In this document: piece after piece, positions 6,955 to 59,784 of the stretch
Numbering within the stretch: position 1 is the stretch's first letter
Layout: each line of letters starts with the position of its first letter
DNA from: Nitrososphaerota archaeon
Lineage (GTDB): Archaea; Thermoproteota; Nitrososphaeria; Nitrososphaerales; Gagatemarchaeaceae
Reading direction: 5' to 3'
NCBI GenBank assembly: GCA_027887005.1
Contig: JAPCJI010000006.1
Coordinates: 1-64,000 of the forward strand
Length of the DNA: 64,000 bases
The notes under the pieces: generated by a model
What the model saw: only the letters and a program-made list of their open reading frames with translations
Database searches by the model: none
What the model was told of the DNA's origin: nothing
Position numbers and translations under genes: made by a program

Positions 6955-8715
6955 CTAGGCGTAGGGGGAAGGGATGTCCCAGTAGCCGTAGGCCTTGGTC
7001 CCGCTCTTCGGGAAGTTCCTCTCCACCGCGGCCTCGACGACGTGCGTCCCCCCGGAGCCCGTGGCTTCCCTCAAGGCCTTCCTGAACTCTCCTGGAGTCG
7101 ATGCGAGCTGATAGCCAGCTCCATACCCCCCTGAAATCTTCTCGAAATCGACCGCATACTCCGCGCCGTCCTTCTTCCTGAATTCCGTGCCGACGAGCCG
7201 CTTCCTGAACGACCTGATCTGAAGGTCTCGAATGGAGATCCATCCCCGGTTGTTCAGGACCACAACCACAAGGGGAATCTGAAGCTGGACGGCCGTCGAA
7301 AGCTCGACGTTGTTCATCATGAAGGAGCCGTCTCCCTCCACTGCGACCACCGGTGTCTTCGGCTGGGCCAGCTTCGCTCCTATGGCGGCCGGGAGGGCGA
7401 ATCCCATGGTGGAGAAGCCCCCGGAACTCAGAAACGTGCGCGGCCGATACGACACCCACTGCTGGGACATTATCTCCTGGGGAAGGCCTGCGCTGACAGT
7501 CACGATCGTGCTCCTCGGAAGGTTCTCTCGCATCAACGCAACGACGTTCGGGATTCCCATGGGTGCCTCCTTCCGGAGCTTCTGCACCTCCTCATGCCAC
7601 GCGTCCTTCAGCTCCTTGACCCTCCTAACCCAGGCCGATGTCCGGGTTCCCTTGCGTTTCCCTACTGACTTCATTGCCTCCAGCAGGTCCCCGAGGCCTG
7701 CCCTGGCGTCCGCGACCATACCCACCGCGGTCGGGTAGTTCTTGCCAAGCTCGTGCTGGTCGATGTCGATGTGGACTAACTTCGTCGGCGGAATCCTGAA
7801 GGTCACTCCCCTGGCGTAGGAGCTGGTCGTCTCGTCGGTGAAGGTCGCCCCGACTGCGAGGAGGACGTCCGCGTTCTTGGCCACCTCGTTGGAGACCGCG
7901 TTTCCGATGTTCCCAGGATGGAAAGCATAGAGCTCATGGTCCTCGGGGAACCCCCCCTTCGAATCCCCCCTGAAGGTGCAAAGGACGGGTGCTGCGAGGA
8001 ACTCGGCCACCCGGACCGCTTCCTTGCCTGCGTCCGACATGACGACCCCTCCTCCCAAAAGGATCACGGGCCTTTCTGCAGCCAGGAGGAGCCTTGCGGC
8101 GGCCGTGACCTTCTCCGAATCAGGTCTGACCCGCCCGTCCGAGAGGTGAAGCTGCGGGCTAGGCACTTCCGCGTCCGTCCTCTCCACCTGGACATCCATG
8201 GGCAGGTCCACCAGCACCGGCCCAGGCCTTCCCCCGAGCGCGGTCCTCATTGCGTCGGGGAGAACCCTGGGGAGCTGGGAGGCGCTGGTGACCGTCCAGG
8301 AGGCCTTGACAAGATGGTTCATGGCGTTGGCGTAGTCCACCCAGTGGCGCCGTTCGATCTCCTGGAAGATCCCCCTGCCGAAAAGGTATGTCTGAATCTG
8401 GCCAGTGAAGGCGAGGAAAGTGGAGGAATCGACATAGGCGGTGGCCATGGCGGTCGCGAGGTTCGTCGCCCCGGGCCCCACCGAAGTCGTGACGGCAGCC
8501 GGGACACGCCTGTTCGCCCTGAAGTATCCGTCGGCCATGTGGCCGCCCCACTGCTCGTGCTTCATCGCCACAATGTTCAGCCGCGGAGCCATGTCCCGGG
8601 CGGCGTCGAAGAGCGAAACGTTGCCATGGCCGGGGATCCCGAAAAGATACCTCACGCCCGCCTTCCTCAGGAACTCCGCAACGAACTGGGCACCGTTGCG
8701 GGAGGCGGGACGCAT
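6955..8715 (-). CDS. iolD: 3D-(3,5/4)-trihydroxycyclohexane-1,2-dione hydrolase (ThDP enzyme)
   Basis: Opens the inositol-derived ring, giving 5-deoxy-glucuronate. A 586-residue thiamine-diphosphate enzyme with the three usual domains. The N-terminal FGIPGHGNVSLFD is the IolD version of the acetolactate-synthase motif; the catalytic Glu lies in MKHEQWGGHMADGYFR (about residue 54), and the ThDP/Mg motif is EGDGSFMMNNVELSTA near residue 465. Slightly shorter than bacterial IolD (about 630). It sits between the aldolase gene and iolC with gaps of about 25 bp. Confidence 0.93.
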   Translation of the reverse strand: MRPASRNGAQFVAEFLRKAGVRYLFGIPGHGNVSLFDAARDMAPRLNIVAMKHEQWGGHMADGYFRANRRVPAAVTTSVGPGATNLATAMATAYVDSSTFLAFTGQIQTYLFGRGIFQEIERRHWVDYANAMNHLVKASWTVTSASQLPRVLPDAMRTALGGRPGPVLVDLPMDVQVERTDAEVPSPQLHLSDGRVRPDSEKVTAAARLLLAAERPVILLGGGVVMSDAGKEAVRVAEFLAAPVLCTFRGDSKGGFPEDHELYAFHPGNIGNAVSNEVAKNADVLLAVGATFTDETTSSYARGVTFRIPPTKLVHIDIDQHELGKNYPTAVGMVADARAGLGDLLEAMKSVGKRKGTRTSAWVRRVKELKDAWHEEVQKLRKEAPMGIPNVVALMRENLPRSTIVTVSAGLPQEIMSQQWVSYRPRTFLSSGGFSTMGFALPAAIGAKLAQPKTPVVAVEGDGSFMMNNVELSTAVQLQIPLVVVVLNNRGWISIRDLQIRSFRKRLVGTEFRKKDGAEYAVDFEKISGGYGAGYQLASTPGEFRKALREATGSGGTHVVEAAVERNFPKSGTKAYGYWDIPSPYA

Positions 8716-8742
8716 CGTCGCGGCGATCCTTCTCAGGCTATT

Positions 8743-9756
8743 TTAATCGTTGGCGCTGAAGAGGTCGGCGTCCTTCCCCACCCACCTGCCCATGACTGCT
8801 TCTGCTTTCTTTGCCCCCAGTCCGCCGTGGACGATGGCCTCTATGGCCCGCGCCAGAGGAAGTGGGTCGTCGCCGGGAGGGTAGAGAAGGTTCCTCCCGA
8901 GCAGGACCCCCCTTACGTTCGGGCCAGCCTTCATGGCATATTCTATTTCGCGGAGGAGCCCTGTCACGTCGTCTCCCGCTTCCCCACCGAGGAGGAGAAT
9001 GGGAAGGGTGGTTGAGCCCGCGACCTTGTCGAAGCCCTCGCAGTAGGGGAGCTTCAGCCAGACTCCGGACGAGGAGTTCCCGAGCCCGCTGACCACGCCG
9101 ACGAGCTTCTGAAGCTTCCCCGCGTCCCTTTCAAGTTCCACCTTCCCGCCAGAGTTCTTCACAGGGAGCGGCTCCACAAAGATTGGAATCCTCCTCGCGA
9201 CGCATTCGCGGACCAGCTGGACACAGTACCCCAGAGCGGCTGCCGAGTCGCGACTCTCAGGGTCGAACCTAAGGAGGAACTTTGCCCCGTCCAGCCGCAT
9301 CTCCACGATTCCGTCGACGTCGTACCCTGTGACTCTGTCGTCAAGCTCGAACGCAGATCCGGCTACTCCGCCGCGGTTGACGCTGCCTATGACCAGCTTA
9401 CCGTCCATGAACCGACGCCCCTTTGAGAAGTGCTGGATCAGGTTCATTTCATCGAAAACGTCTGCTGTCGCGAGGAGCCCGTCGAAGGTGGAGCAGGCCA
9501 TGACCCTCAGGACCCTGGAGAGGAACTCATGCCTGTCGGCCATCCTCAGCTGGTCTTCCCTGATCCGGGTCACCATCCGGCCAGGATGGTCCGCCGCCAG
9601 CAGAGTCAGCTTCCCGTCCTTGGTAAGTGCGCGCCTCCTGACCCTCTTTGACGCGAGCCTGATTGGGAGTCCAGGGTCGCCCACCCTCGAATCCGCAGCT
9701 CGGGCGTAGAGCTCCTGGGGGAGGAACTCAAGAGCAGCGAACCGTGTTCCACGCAC
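8743..9756 (-). CDS. TIM-barrel aldolase, likely DKGP aldolase (IolJ role)
   Basis: A 337-residue (beta/alpha)8-type protein resembling the DeoC/LacD/Cgl0158-like group found in actinobacterial inositol clusters and the C-terminal domain fused to many bacterial IolC proteins. Visible strands include LLAADHPGRM, GLLATADVFDEM and a Lys-containing GAKFLLRFDPES, where a Schiff-base Lys would be expected in class I aldolases. The position as first gene of the aldolase-iolD-iolC-iolB unit makes cleavage of 2-deoxy-5-keto-gluconate 6-phosphate to DHAP and malonate semialdehyde the best guess. There is no classical class II IolJ in the window. GTG start with GGAG five bases upstream. Confidence 0.75.
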   Translation of the reverse strand: MRGTRFAALEFLPQELYARAADSRVGDPGLPIRLASKRVRRRALTKDGKLTLLAADHPGRMVTRIREDQLRMADRHEFLSRVLRVMACSTFDGLLATADVFDEMNLIQHFSKGRRFMDGKLVIGSVNRGGVAGSAFELDDRVTGYDVDGIVEMRLDGAKFLLRFDPESRDSAAALGYCVQLVRECVARRIPIFVEPLPVKNSGGKVELERDAGKLQKLVGVVSGLGNSSSGVWLKLPYCEGFDKVAGSTTLPILLLGGEAGDDVTGLLREIEYAMKAGPNVRGVLLGRNLLYPPGDDPLPLARAIEAIVHGGLGAKKAEAVMGRWVGKDADLFSAND

Positions 9757-47788: not shown

Positions 47789-48100
47789 GCGAGGAAGTTC
47801 TTTGAAGGCTAGAATCCCCGATACTCGAAGGTTCGCCAGCTTCCTGCTTGGCAGGGGTCAGAGGCTGGAATTCGCTCTGAGGCCCGTTGCAGGGGAACAA
47901 TTACTTGAGACGCAGGCTGTGAAAGACCAAATCCTGACGAAATCCCATCGAGAACTAAGAATGAACAAATCTACTCCTCCTCGCGTCTCAAGAGGTCCTC
48001 CCAGGATGTCACAGCTGGACACTTGAGCTCATCCATATAGAAGTTCCCGACACTTCAACCAAAGCCAAGGGCCCTACCAATGATTGATTCAGAATTTCAG
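47789..48100 (+). other. Stretch with only one weak small reading frame
   Basis: About 310 bp between the winged-helix gene and the mobile element. A TTG-started frame 47802-48026 encodes 74 residues (KARIPDTRRFASFLLGRGQ at the start), basic, without recognised features; it may be a small gene or a broken one. I see no promoter, tRNA or repeat in this part. The insertion site of the element, AACAGGTTAGAATG, begins at 48101. Confidence 0.35.
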
Positions 48101-48114
48101 AACAGGTTAGAATG
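48101..48114 (+). repeat. Left 14-bp direct repeat (target-site duplication)
   Basis: AACAGGTTAGAATG, identical to 49935-49948 and in the same orientation. It directly abuts the left inverted repeat, so it is best read as duplicated target DNA. Confidence 0.85.
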
Positions 48115-48187
48115 TTTTACAATAGCCCCTGCGGGGGGCTCGTGTGTGTGCTGCGCAAAGGGTGCGCGGGCTTGCGCTAAGCTGTGC
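48115..48187 (+). repeat. Left 73-bp terminal inverted repeat
   Basis: Starts TTTTACAATAGCCCC and ends GCTGTGC. The copy at 49862-49934 is its exact reverse complement over all 73 bp. It contains a small hairpin AGCCCC-TGCGG-GGGGCT at 48124-48140 and three TGCGC motifs at 48152, 48163 and 48173. Confidence 0.95.
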
Positions 48188-48289
48188 TACGTTGTGCCAG
48201 AGTCAGCGAGCGAATGGGCTGGCTCGCTCGGCTCCGCCTCGCTCGCTGCGGAGGAGGGCGGGAGAGAGGGGTGAAGGGGCAGCTCAGCC

Positions 48290-48460
48290 CTAGTGACGGG
48301 TGACTCGTCTGAACCAAAGGGCGAAGATCAGAGCGAAGGCGACAAGTGAGGGAAGGAAAAAGGACGCTGCCCATCCATACGTGAATGAAAGCCCAAGGAC
48401 AAAGCCGGAGAAAGCAAGCGGCGGCCAGAATGTCCTGAAGGCGCCGCGCCGGTGTGACAT
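48290..48460 (-). CDS. 56-residue two-helix membrane protein
   Basis: Reads MSHRRGAFRTFWPPLAFSG at the start, then two hydrophobic segments (about residues 12-29 and 32-49) and a basic end RRVTRH, so both ends should be cytoplasmic. Not recognised. A GTATTTAAC element on the plus strand (GTTAAATAC on the minus) lies 29 bp upstream of ATG 48460, supporting a real transcript. It is cargo of the element. Confidence 0.6.
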   Translation of the reverse strand: MSHRRGAFRTFWPPLAFSGFVLGLSFTYGWAASFFLPSLVAFALIFALWFRRVTRH

Positions 48461-48484
48461 CTCAAAGAGCCATGCTCGGTTGTC

Positions 48485-48493
48485 GTATTTAAC
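48485..48493 (-). promoter_or_regulatory. TATA box for the 56-residue protein
   Basis: GTTAAATAC on the minus strand centred 29 bp before ATG 48460. Confidence 0.6.
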
Positions 48494-48514
48494 ACCGAGA
48501 TGGTGGAGAAGTGC

Positions 48515-48901
48515 TCAACAGATGACGTTCTCAGCAGCATTGGATCCGTAAACGTGAATGGTGCCAGCGTCACAATGGTTGGGAGGGCCATTGTAGGGAG
48601 TGGAGACGACTGTGACATGATAAAGGGCGTTGTTAGGTAGGTCTACCGCGTACTGGGCTGTGCTGCCCTGAATATTCATGGCGTAGGCTGAGTAGTTCTT
48701 TCCCGAACCCGAAGTGAAATCAATCCGTGTCGGAGTGGGTTCATATCCTGTCGTAGCCGTGAAACTACCGCTGATTCTCACATTTCCCTGAAAAATAGAA
48801 GCCCCGTTCTTGAGATATATCACCACCCCTAAGACCGACACCATCACTAAAAACACCGCGACAACAATCAAAATCGCAGTCGAGCTCTTCAACGCACTCA
48901 A
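48515..48901 (-). CDS. Membrane-anchored secreted protein, element cargo
   Basis: A 128-residue protein. The N-terminus has one hydrophobic helix (about residues 8-28, AILIVVAVFLVMVSVLGVVIYL), then a beta-rich domain of about 95 residues (NVRISGSFTATTGYEPTPTRIDF) with two Cys near the end (NHCDAG, final NVIC). Reading type-IV-pilin-like or with a carboxypeptidase-regulatory fold is possible; not certain. TTG start with a CCTTATCA box 25 bp upstream. Its stop lies 54 bp before the next small gene. Confidence 0.55.
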   Translation of the reverse strand: MSALKSSTAILIVVAVFLVMVSVLGVVIYLKNGASIFQGNVRISGSFTATTGYEPTPTRIDFTSGSGKNYSAYAMNIQGSTAQYAVDLPNNALYHVTVVSTPYNGPPNHCDAGTIHVYGSNAAENVIC

Positions 48902-49039
48902 GTGAAATCTAGGGTTTGCTTCTGATAAGGATTCTCTTGAGTGTCAGAGGGCTGATCGCCGCTAAGCAGGCAGGTCGGAGCGCGGCTCTCACAGGAATCA
49001 AGGTCGTCGGGCCGAATAAGTGGACAACCCTAATACAGA

Positions 49040-49735
49040 ATGCGAGCCATAGGGAAGCGACCCACTGAGTTGGCCGACCCTAACACAGACTATCGAACGA
49101 TTTCTCGACTGGCATATGACAATGGAGTCGACCTCTACGAAGAAGCAAAACTGTTACATCAGAAAGAGTCTCCGAGGGCGTTCACTCTGGCCGTTGCCTC
49201 AATAGAAGAGTTGGAGAAGTCGCAACTCTGCGACCTCGTCGCAAAAGGAATGGTCAAGCCAGAAGAACTTGTCTTTGAGGACAAGAATGGAAAACATCCA
49301 CTCTTGACACATCACAAAGGGAAACAAATCCTCTTCACGCTATTCCTTCTTACTCAAGCAGCGAACAAGGAGGGGAGAGCGAAAGTTGCCGAAGTCTACG
49401 ACACGCTGATGCGGACTGGCAATACTGACACAGTCAATGTCAAAGGGAAGAAGCAGATTGTCGAACAAATTGTCTCAATGGAATCAAGGAGACAAGACTC
49501 CGTATACGTCGGCACAAAAGGCGTTGGGAAACAGGTAAAATCGCCAAAGAAGGCAATTTCGCGGAAAATGGCCGAGTATTTACTTCAGAGAATCAGTGAG
49601 TATCTGCCGAAGTTGAAAACAAACCTAATGATGAGCGACCAACAATATCAAGCGGAGAACGAGAAACGAATGAAGGAATACGCGAAGCATGTCCAGCCAG
49701 TTAACACTCCTAAGAAATCGGAGGAACAAGCCTAA
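49040..49735 (+). CDS. AbiV-family (HEPN-type) abortive-infection protein
   Basis: A 231-residue protein. Residues 28-62 (NGVDLYEEAKLLHQKESPRAFTLA, then EELEK) match the AbiV pattern of an Asn-x-A-like start, a Ala-rich helix and a conserved E-E-x-x-K (E56, E57, K60); the AbiV domain is a HEPN-type helical bundle. In lactococci AbiV blocks phage by hindering translation. The C-terminal half is Lys-rich and helical. No obvious RxxxxH RNase motif. ATG start. GC content is lower than the flanking genes, consistent with acquisition. Followed by a hairpin terminator. Confidence 0.7.
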   Translation: MRAIGKRPTELADPNTDYRTISRLAYDNGVDLYEEAKLLHQKESPRAFTLAVASIEELEKSQLCDLVAKGMVKPEELVFEDKNGKHPLLTHHKGKQILFTLFLLTQAANKEGRAKVAEVYDTLMRTGNTDTVNVKGKKQIVEQIVSMESRRQDSVYVGTKGVGKQVKSPKKAISRKMAEYLLQRISEYLPKLKTNLMMSDQQYQAENEKRMKEYAKHVQPVNTPKKSEEQA

Positions 49736-49760
49736 TGGCCCGCCAAGTTAACAGAACCCC

Positions 49761-49789
49761 GCCTAGCAACAAACTAGGCTGCTTTCCTA
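49761..49789 (+). terminator. Hairpin after the AbiV-like gene
   Basis: GCCTAG, loop CAACAAA, CTAGGC (49761-49779), then a pyrimidine-rich tail TGCTTTCCT. It lies 25 bp after the AbiV stop, inside the element. Confidence 0.6.
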
Positions 49790-49861
49790 TGATAATTGCG
49801 ATTAGTGCGAGCGGCAATGAGAACTGCGGTGGGCGTAGTCTAGCTGCCGCACGCACTGCAC

Positions 49862-49934
49862 GCACAGCTTAGCGCAAGCCCGCGCACCCTTTGCGCAGCA
49901 CACACACGAGCCCCCCGCAGGGGCTATTGTAAAA
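49862..49934 (-). repeat. Right 73-bp terminal inverted repeat
   Basis: Exact reverse complement of 48115-48187. It ends GGGGCTATTGTAAAA next to the right direct repeat. Confidence 0.95.
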
Positions 49935-49948
49935 AACAGGTTAGAATG
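49935..49948 (+). repeat. Right 14-bp direct repeat (target-site duplication)
   Basis: AACAGGTTAGAATG, same as 48101-48114. The host sequence on either side (TTCAG before, CGAAA after) joins smoothly at one copy. Confidence 0.85.
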
Positions 49949-49958
49949 CGAAATGCCG

Positions 49959-50261
49959 TTACTTCTTCTTGGACATCTCAGAGAGTCCTTCCAGACTGTC
50001 CTTGAAGCTGCCGAGCGGGTGCACCTCCCGCTCCACGGCGAAGTTTGTCGGTGAGTTGAAGAAGATCTCTCCCATCTCTTCTATCGTCTCAGTCTCCAGG
50101 ACATAGCCAGCGGCGATGATGTCAAGGAAGGGACCACCCACTATCCTTCCCTTCTTTTGCAACTTCAGCTTGTATTCGAGGTCGGCCTTCGCGAGTCTCT
50201 CGAACTCCTTCTTGTCGCTGAGGACCCCATGGCTCATCCTTTCGACTACTAGAAATCGCAT
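49959..50261 (-). CDS. YCII/muconolactone-isomerase-like small protein
   Basis: A 100-residue ferredoxin-like fold protein. MRFLVVERMSHGVLSDKKEFERLAKADLEYKLKLQKKGRIVGGPFLD is the family's first half (an N-terminal strand, helix and GRIVGGP). Related proteins act in ring cleavage or are uncharacterised. The stop lies 11 bp from the right repeat of the element, so the element sits just after this gene. Confidence 0.7.
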   Translation of the reverse strand: MRFLVVERMSHGVLSDKKEFERLAKADLEYKLKLQKKGRIVGGPFLDIIAAGYVLETETIEEMGEIFFNSPTNFAVEREVHPLGSFKDSLEGLSEMSKKK

Positions 50262-57423: not shown

Positions 57424-57591
57424 TCGTTCCAATGGCTGGCGGCATGCCATTTATCTCGTTTCTACCTCCCACAGACCCCGACCGCCACCCTCTTGTCTTA
57501 CGCGAAAGAGCTGGCCGTCCTGATTTTTCATGCCTCATGAAGGAAACCTTCTTATTCAATCCTAGGCGGGGAACCTTTTGGTAGCAGAGGC

Positions 57592-59784
57592 GTGCCGAAG
57601 TTCAAGTCAACAGCTGAAGCTCTCAAGTTAGTCCACAACCGAGAGCAGATCCGCAACCTGGGGATCATCGCCCACGTGGACCACGGGAAGACCACCACTT
57701 CTGACAGCCTGCTGGCTGCATGCGGAATGCTAAGCCCGAGCGTGGCCGGCCAGGCTTTGGCCCTTGACTACATGGAGCTCGAACAGCAGCGACAGATGAC
57801 AATCAAAGCAGCTAACGTGACCCTTTACTACGAATCAGGCGGGAAGCCCTACGTCATCAACCTCATCGACACCCCCGGCCACATAGACTTCACAGGCAAA
57901 GTGACCAGGAGTCTCAGGGCTGTCGACGGGGCCATCGTCGTCATCGATGCGGTCGAGGGCATCATGACCCAGACCGAGACGGTCACCCGACAGGCGCTTG
58001 AAGAGCGCGTACGGCCCGTCGTCTACATCAACAAGATCGACCGGCTGATCAAGGAGCTCCGCCTCTCACCTGAGAGGATGCAGGAATGGCTCTTCAACAT
58101 CGTGAAGGAATTCAACAGGTTGATCGACACCTACGCAGAACCAGAGTACAAACAGAAATGGAAGGTCTCGATCCAGGACGCCCAGGTGGCCTTCGGCTCC
58201 TCGAAGGACAAGTGGGGCTTCAACTTCGACATGGCGAAGGCGGCTGGGATGTCATTCAAGGACATAATCGAGGCTTACTCGACCCAGTCGCTACAGGCTC
58301 TTGGCGAGAAGCTGCCCCTCCACGAGGCGCTCCTCGGAATGGTGGTAAGGCATCACCCGCCGCCACACGTAGCCCAGGCCTATCGCATCCCCAAGATCTG
58401 GAGTGCGGGGGATCTTACAAGCGACGTGGGAAAGGCGCTGCTCTCCTGCGACGAAAACGGGCCGACGGTAATGATGGTGACCAACGTCGTGGTCGACCCT
58501 GCCGCAGGCCTGGTGGCGACGGGCAGGCTCTTTTCAGGGAGCGTCTCCAACGGAGACCAGGTCTACCTCCTTAACTCAAAGAGAGAAGGGAAGATCCAGT
58601 CAGTCCAGATATTCATGGGATTCCAGAGGGAGATAGTCGACTCTCTGCCCGCAGGGAACATACCCGCGCTTCTGGGCCTCGACATCAGGTCCGGGGAGAC
58701 AATCTCCAACCAGAAAGGCGTGGCGCCCTTCGAGTCCATACACTACGTCAGCGAACCTGTGGTCACCGTGGCGGTCGAAGCCAAGCATCCCAGGGACCTC
58801 CCGAAGCTCGTCGAAGTCATGCGCAGGCTGAACATAGAGGACCCCAACCTCGTCGTGACGATCAACCAGGAATCAGGAGAGACCCTGATGTCTGGCATGG
58901 GGGTCCTGCACCTGGAGATCGCGACTACGATGATCCAAAACGCCGGCCTCGAAATCATCACCTCGCCACCGATAATCAACTACAGGGAAACGATAAGGAC
59001 CCAAGCAGGCCCGATAATGGCGCGCTCGCCGAACAGGCACAACAAGATCTTCGTCGAAGTCGAGCCGCTTACCCCCGACGTGGTCGAACTGGTCAGGAAC
59101 GGCACTATCACCGAGAACATTGAGAAGAAGCTGGTCATCAAACTCCTTAGGGACCACGGCTGGGACCCGGACCAGGCAAGGAACTGGCAGGCCATCGACG
59201 AGAGGGGCAACATAATGACCGAGCTAACGAAGGGAGTCCAGTTCCTCCAGGAGTCCATGGACTCCATCCGGGCCGGCTTCGACGACATCATGAAGAACGG
59301 ACCTCTGGCCTACGAGTTCACAAGGGGTGTCAAGGTCGTGCTGACGAACTACGTCCCCCACGAGGACGCAGCCCACAGGACCTATGCCCAGCTGATGCCC
59401 GCTTCAAGGAGGGCCATCCTCGGGGCGATGCTGTCGGCCAACCCGACACTCCTGGAGCCCATCCTCGGCATAGAAGTCAAGGGCCCCGCGGACCTCATTG
59501 GCGCCATAACGGGGGTCATCAGCGCGAAAAGAGGCAAGCTCGTCAAGATCGACCAGAGGGAAGTCATGACAATCGTCGAGGGCGAGATCCCGGCCTCCGA
59601 GACCTTCGACCTGAGCGAGAAGATGAGGGGCGCCACAGCTGGCAAGGCCGTGTGGAACACCCACTTCAAGACCTGGCAGGCAGTCCCCACCAACATGCTC
59701 TGGGGCCTGGTGACCGAGATCCGGAAGCGCAAGGGGCTCCCGCCAGACCCGCCGAAGGCGGAAGAGTTCATCGACAGGGAGTAG
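57592..59784 (+). CDS. fusA: Translation elongation factor EF-2
   Basis: GTPase that moves the ribosome along mRNA. Full length at 730 residues. GTPase motifs: AHVDHGKTT (G1, about residue 26), DTPGH (G3) and NKIDR (G4). Domain IV carries the diphthamide loop near residue 600 (RTYAQLMPASRR after HEDAAHR). GTG start. The 6-bp gap to the next gene suggests co-transcription. Confidence 0.97.
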   Translation: MPKFKSTAEALKLVHNREQIRNLGIIAHVDHGKTTTSDSLLAACGMLSPSVAGQALALDYMELEQQRQMTIKAANVTLYYESGGKPYVINLIDTPGHIDFTGKVTRSLRAVDGAIVVIDAVEGIMTQTETVTRQALEERVRPVVYINKIDRLIKELRLSPERMQEWLFNIVKEFNRLIDTYAEPEYKQKWKVSIQDAQVAFGSSKDKWGFNFDMAKAAGMSFKDIIEAYSTQSLQALGEKLPLHEALLGMVVRHHPPPHVAQAYRIPKIWSAGDLTSDVGKALLSCDENGPTVMMVTNVVVDPAAGLVATGRLFSGSVSNGDQVYLLNSKREGKIQSVQIFMGFQREIVDSLPAGNIPALLGLDIRSGETISNQKGVAPFESIHYVSEPVVTVAVEAKHPRDLPKLVEVMRRLNIEDPNLVVTINQESGETLMSGMGVLHLEIATTMIQNAGLEIITSPPIINYRETIRTQAGPIMARSPNRHNKIFVEVEPLTPDVVELVRNGTITENIEKKLVIKLLRDHGWDPDQARNWQAIDERGNIMTELTKGVQFLQESMDSIRAGFDDIMKNGPLAYEFTRGVKVVLTNYVPHEDAAHRTYAQLMPASRRAILGAMLSANPTLLEPILGIEVKGPADLIGAITGVISAKRGKLVKIDQREVMTIVEGEIPASETFDLSEKMRGATAGKAVWNTHFKTWQAVPTNMLWGLVTEIRKRKGLPPDPPKAEEFIDRE

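Follow-up and report, generated by a model that had tools for sequence, protein, structure and literature searches.

A transposase-less archaeal mobile element carrying an AbiV-family gene next to a decayed casposase gene: a candidate natural mini-casposon

The 64,000-nt stretch of DNA analysed here (the window) contains a mobile element of 1,820 bp whose terminal inverted repeats (TIRs) are 73 nt long and 100% complementary, with the two copies of a 14-mer target site duplication (TSD), AACAGGTTAGAATG, lying directly against them. The initial annotation had described exactly this arrangement, and the coordinates bear it out. The element and its immediate surroundings comprise the following features:

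47799-47975, + strand: decayed C-terminal fragment of a casposase (Cas1), including the HTH region; outside the element
47976-48042, - strand: truncated N-terminus of a PD-(D/E)XK (Exo5/Cas4-like) nuclease gene, fused to the casposase relic in tail-to-tail orientation
48101-48114, + strand: left target duplication, 14-mer AACAGGTTAGAATG, present in 2 exact copies
48115-48187, + strand: left TIR, 73 bp, with two internal hairpins predicted by folding
48205-48247, no strand: subterminal GC-rich palindromic stretch, 43 bp, 95% identical to a stretch next to a mobile element with cas1 (L130) in genome G103, another species of the genus
48290-48460, - strand: hydrophobic ORF of 56 aa
48515-48901, - strand: N-terminally anchored membrane protein of 128 aa, no named family
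49040-49735, + strand: AbiV-family HEPN protein, 231 aa, intact (Pfam, NCBIfam)
49862-49934, - strand: right TIR, 73 bp, perfect reverse complement of the left TIR
49935-49948, + strand: right target duplication, 14-mer AACAGGTTAGAATG, identical to the left copy
49959-50261, - strand: YCII/MIase-like gene, stop codon 10 bp from the right duplication

The pattern of TIRs plus duplication is far beyond chance. The 14-mer has no third place in the 64-kb window with up to 2 mismatches allowed, and a degenerate third copy upstream of the element, which would point to tandem insertion, was not found. The 22-nt TIR tip has no further match with up to 3 mismatches (0 expected by chance), and a sequence search covering the whole 1.6-Mb genome finds exactly 2 TIR copies. 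A structural scan of 537 kb, i.e. one third of the host genome, revealed no further TIR element with a TSD of at least 7 bp. The element begins with TTTTACAAT, its tips are of the type TTTT...AAAA, and its GC content is 52% as compared to 59% in the window.

Neither a casposon nor a transposon with these TIRs turned up among 300 genomes of the order, 400 of the class and IMG/VR, or among the GTDB contigs, which were searched by the 20-mer TIR tip only. Likewise, no casposase-encoding element in the collections searched shares the TIR, and no element with a DDE transposase in the sampled collections shares the ends. The check suggested in the initial annotation, to look in related genomes for pairs of the 73-bp repeat with or without a cas1 or polB gene in between, found no such pair in these collections. 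Many genomes of the order contain partial matches to the 20-nt start of the TIR; a common IS end was considered and rejected, since in context the matches are scattered and mostly coding-like stretches (GGGGCTATTGTA). The three Bacteroidales contigs containing the exact 20-mer have one shared unrelated context in which no TIR pair is seen. Genomes of the genus showed no empty site, owing to a lack of conservation of both the flanking DNA and the YCII-like gene, the latter having no clear orthologue in the 30 other genomes of the genus; the collections contain one genome per species, so that this result extends to other species rather than to sister strains.

None of the ORFs inside the element matches a transposase, an integrase or Cas1 in Pfam, NCBIfam or PHROGs, in agreement with the absence of a transposase asserted before, and none is large enough for a family B DNA polymerase (PolB). 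The AbiV assignment, originally made from the letters alone, is now backed by scores above the family cut-offs, i.e. 3.2e-15 and 57.1 bits for Pfam PF18728 HEPN_AbiV (cut-off 27.1) and 1.5e-13 and 51.3 bits for NCBIfam TIGR04498 AbiV_defense (cut-off 27). The reading of a mobile element that moves a defence gene and has no transposase of its own is supported. H92 is conserved across a three-sequence AbiV alignment, R151 is a further conserved residue, and the predicted model of the protein (pLDDT 73, i.e. modest confidence) is helical with a β-hairpin insert ahead of helix 92-109. In AbiV an alternative histidine, coming from an insert before helix 3, replaces Rx4-6H (PMC3710099), a description that fits both the conserved H92 and the predicted model. 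The window protein resembles Lactococcus AbiV, a HEPN RNase whose PDB entry (9bj6) is titled as a two-component antiphage system, in belonging to the same family by sequence and in its all-helical model with H92 after the hairpin insert. It differs, however, in being archaeal and encoded on a small mobile element, and the fold match is weak, a fold search with the model returning only weak PDB matches, sacsin HEPN and Lactococcus AbiV among them. Of the 400 genomes of the order searched, only two besides this one have AbiV relatives, each belonging to the same genus, and none was found in IMG/VR or in phages.

Two membrane proteins had been proposed as additional cargo, of which one stands: the 128-aa protein has weak relatives in 8 of 201 genomes, whereas the 56-aa ORF has no support except being open. 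The closest of these relatives is encoded directly next to a casposase relic, in a different family.

The left flank of the element is a graveyard of truncated genes, and here, 139 bp outside the element, lies the casposase relic, which the initial annotation had missed. It is the sole cas1 trace found in this genome, intact Cas1 being absent, and aligns to residues 293-350 of a protein from genome G097 with about 61-62% identity over 58-59 aa (E 1.2e-14). The best solved relative of the G097 protein is a Cas1 chain, 6opm, aligned over residues 34-369 and thus nearly the entire protein (3e-38), which we take to be the M. mazei casposase, the database name being only Cas1; Cas1 chains other than 6opm align to the G097 protein only up to residue 297. 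The relic covers the C-terminal region that holds the HTH, and this HTH is essential in casposases and missing from CRISPR Cas1 (PMC6977970). On the other side of the element, the 3' end of the YCII/MIase-like gene is the likely insertion target. The window contains no tRNA, and the insertion site has no T-arm motif. As judged from ORF reading, the window also encodes thermosome-like and aEF-2-like proteins, in keeping with an archaeal host, the gene of the latter (57541-59784) being located 7.6 kb from the element. Thaumarchaeal family 1 casposons classically insert at the 3' end of the aEF-2 gene.

Casposon TIRs range from 25 to 602 bp with a median of 56, some of them with internal palindromes, the median TSD is 15 bp (PMC4046053), and the M. 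mazei casposase produces a duplication of exactly 14 bp (PMC6977970). The 73-bp TIR lies within this range and the 14-bp duplication within the ~14-16 bp of casposons. Thaumarchaeal casposons insert at gene 3' ends (PMC4046053), tandem casposons occur and one published casposon encodes a HEPN nuclease (PMC6563490), and an engineered mini-casposon has been mobilised in trans in M. mazei (PMC10359463). Compared to casposons such as that at the M. mazei tRNA-Leu and those of Thaumarchaeota family 1, the window element is similar in TIR length, 14-bp TSD, an adjoining casposase relic and, probably, insertion just beyond a gene 3' end, but it measures 1.8 kb instead of several kb and has TTTT tips, a non-tRNA target and a TIR common to no casposon found. 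Moreover, it is without cas1 and without PolB and hence fails the definition of an autonomous casposon. The engineered mini-casposon (PMC10359463) has the same order TSD-TIR-cargo-TIR-TSD, no casposase of its own and an integration site beside a casposon (tandem). That element is a laboratory construct, whereas the window element is natural, carries a defence gene and has only a presumed mobilising enzyme. In the literature found, casposases moving non-autonomous elements are described for engineered constructs only.

The genus has casposons of its own. One of them lies at a tRNA-Leu (L128, 4338-14382 of G044:C1) and has TIRs of at least 75 bp and a duplication of ~16 bp. Its casposase is related, with 78% identity, and interrupted by one in-frame TAG, its cargo consists of type II restriction-modification (C5-MTase and type II REase), Vsr and ParA, and no ORF is large enough for PolB; from its gene content, L128 would be a polymerase-less defence casposon. 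Our scan of the order also recovers the casposons L194 and L196 with TSDs of 15 to 16 bp, and casposon ends elsewhere are GGGG-type as opposed to the TTTT...AAAA tips of the window element. No casposase relatives were found in IMG/VR. The initial suggestion of a casposon link, a guess from TSD length, has thus gained the relic, the genus casposons and the cargo relative, but an autonomous casposon with the same TIR has not turned up in the collections searched.

Several other cas1-bearing loci came to light. L130 (381-9246 of G103:C65) is a mobile element with 42-bp imperfect inverted repeats in which a divergent Cas1 is accompanied by a Zot-like/M13 gpI-like ATPase; no target duplication was found at this locus, which could be a Cas1-encoding virus or a casposon of unknown family. 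The 43-bp subterminal stretch of the window element matches L130 in reverse orientation and mostly beyond the inverted repeat of the latter, so the match is suggestive only and not decisive. At L129 (253-7014 of G172:C8) a cas1 fragment directly adjoins a type I restriction-modification cluster, and at L131 (682-2198 of G118:C18) two ORFs by a truncated casposase have a faint AbiE-pair likeness (PADLOC AbiEii 0.009). L180 (8303-10058 of G064:C141) contains two casposase C-terminal relics with 1.6 kb between them, perhaps decayed tandem casposons.

The element ends and the decayed casposase gene beside them suggest, but do not prove, a casposase as the mover. We assign a probability of roughly 0.5 to a natural mini-casposon, i.e. 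a non-autonomous element that a casposase mobilised in trans. For the wider claim, i.e. that natural mini-casposons exist which are casposase-less, moved in trans and ferry antiviral genes (here AbiV) beside the polymerase-less, restriction-carrying casposons of the genus, the odds fall a little short of even. In such a scenario the two matching 73-bp ends enclose AbiV and a membrane protein as cargo, and the element would be cut out by the casposase of a different casposon present in that cell and placed 10 bp past a gene 3' end, with 14 bp of target duplicated in the process. The relic 139 bp outside would be what an earlier casposon left behind at this insertion hotspot, giving the pair a tandem or hotspot origin, and the inserted AbiV may act as a virus-triggered HEPN RNase. 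The relic copy did not make the last move, since the relic is badly decayed and the element perfect.

Our estimate reflects these fits as weighed against the unique TIRs, the differing tips and the differing ages. The lengths of TIR and TSD fit casposons well, and the insertion 10 bp past a stop codon may resemble the preference of thaumarchaeal casposons for gene 3' ends. A mini-casposon is further backed by the casposase HTH relic nearby, the casposons of the genus and the one cargo relative found by a casposase relic, and by analogy the in-trans movement in M. mazei and the HEPN nuclease of a casposon may be taken as precedents for it. Against it stand the lack of casposase and PolB inside, TIRs unique in all collections searched, TTTT...AAAA tips instead of GGGG-type ends, and a genus casposon that sits at tRNA-Leu when the window is without tRNA. 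The element is also a single copy with no empty site seen (one genome per species), and relic and element clearly differ in age. Their proximity could be coincidence in a graveyard of mobile DNA.

This last possibility, that relic and element are unrelated neighbours and the likeness to casposons coincidental, whatever the enzyme, we regard as somewhat improbable, its estimate overlapping with those of the other alternatives and not being additive to them. The truncated genes of the left flank speak for it, as mobile DNA accumulates in such places, and the weight of the 139-bp distance depends on how strongly mobile DNA clusters; yet this 1.6-Mb genome has a single relic and a single element, 139 bp apart, and the adjacency of cargo and casposase recurs independently in another family. 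The main rival as to the enzyme is a DDE transposon family, of which the element would be a non-autonomous (MITE-like or cargo) derivative moved in trans, the transposase being absent here or too diverged. Transposase-less DDE derivatives are common, and a few DDE families reportedly make 10- to 15-bp duplications. Moreover, the AbiV relatives in the genus ride on or adjoin DDE elements (inside L062 and beside L063, see below). On the other hand, no DDE element with these ends was found in any collection searched, GGTTCTG ends and TSDs of 8 bp are typical of the IS6-like elements in the genus, the 537-kb host scan is devoid of any other TIR element with a TSD of at least 7 bp, and the casposase relic next door is left unexplained. 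We therefore hold a DDE origin to be a tentative alternative that we would not bet on.

A narrower variant, in which an IS6-family derivative (MITE or pseudo-compound element) was mobilised by IS6-like transposases, which abound in the genus, draws on the presence of such transposases in this genome (6 matching places, fragments counted) and on L062 (7002-10014 of G010:C1), an IS6-like transposon of a sister species with 53-bp perfect TIRs and AbiV inside. Like the window element, L062 has long perfect TIRs and a gene for a membrane protein, and the two AbiV genes are related (50% identity), but L062 encodes a DDE transposase (DDE_Tnp_IS240) with a SWIM zinc finger and has GGGTTCTG ends and a short TSD. 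The IS6-like elements of the genus start with GGTTCTG and have 8-bp duplications where these are clear, whereas the window element has neither; its tips and TSD length are unlike those of every IS6-like element measured, which largely refutes this variant and makes it very unlikely. Even less credible is integration of a small element by a tyrosine recombinase, with the 14-mers as attachment-site cores. Thaumarchaeota do commonly have short att repeats (PMC6563490), but no integrase is encoded inside, and elements inserted by a recombinase do not need perfect 73-bp TIRs exactly against the repeats.

If the element is indeed a mini-casposon, it would be a natural case with defence cargo, in which Cas1-type integrases directly spread immunity genes, and it would offer a simple substrate for probing the end specificity of casposases. 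The ancestral enzyme of CRISPR spacer acquisition is considered to be related to the casposases.

Two further repeat-bounded loci deserve mention. At L063 the neighbours of an AbiV gene are an IS6-like transposase and a short element with IS6-type ends (8715-9413 of G145:C292). This element is ~680 bp long and carries a single holin-like gene; its IS6-like ends are imperfect and 22 bp long, and its direct repeats measure 11 bp. L206 (42-5328; about 171,000-176,300 of G000:C1) is a cluster of long inverted repeats, 80-99% identical, that are probably inverted gene copies.
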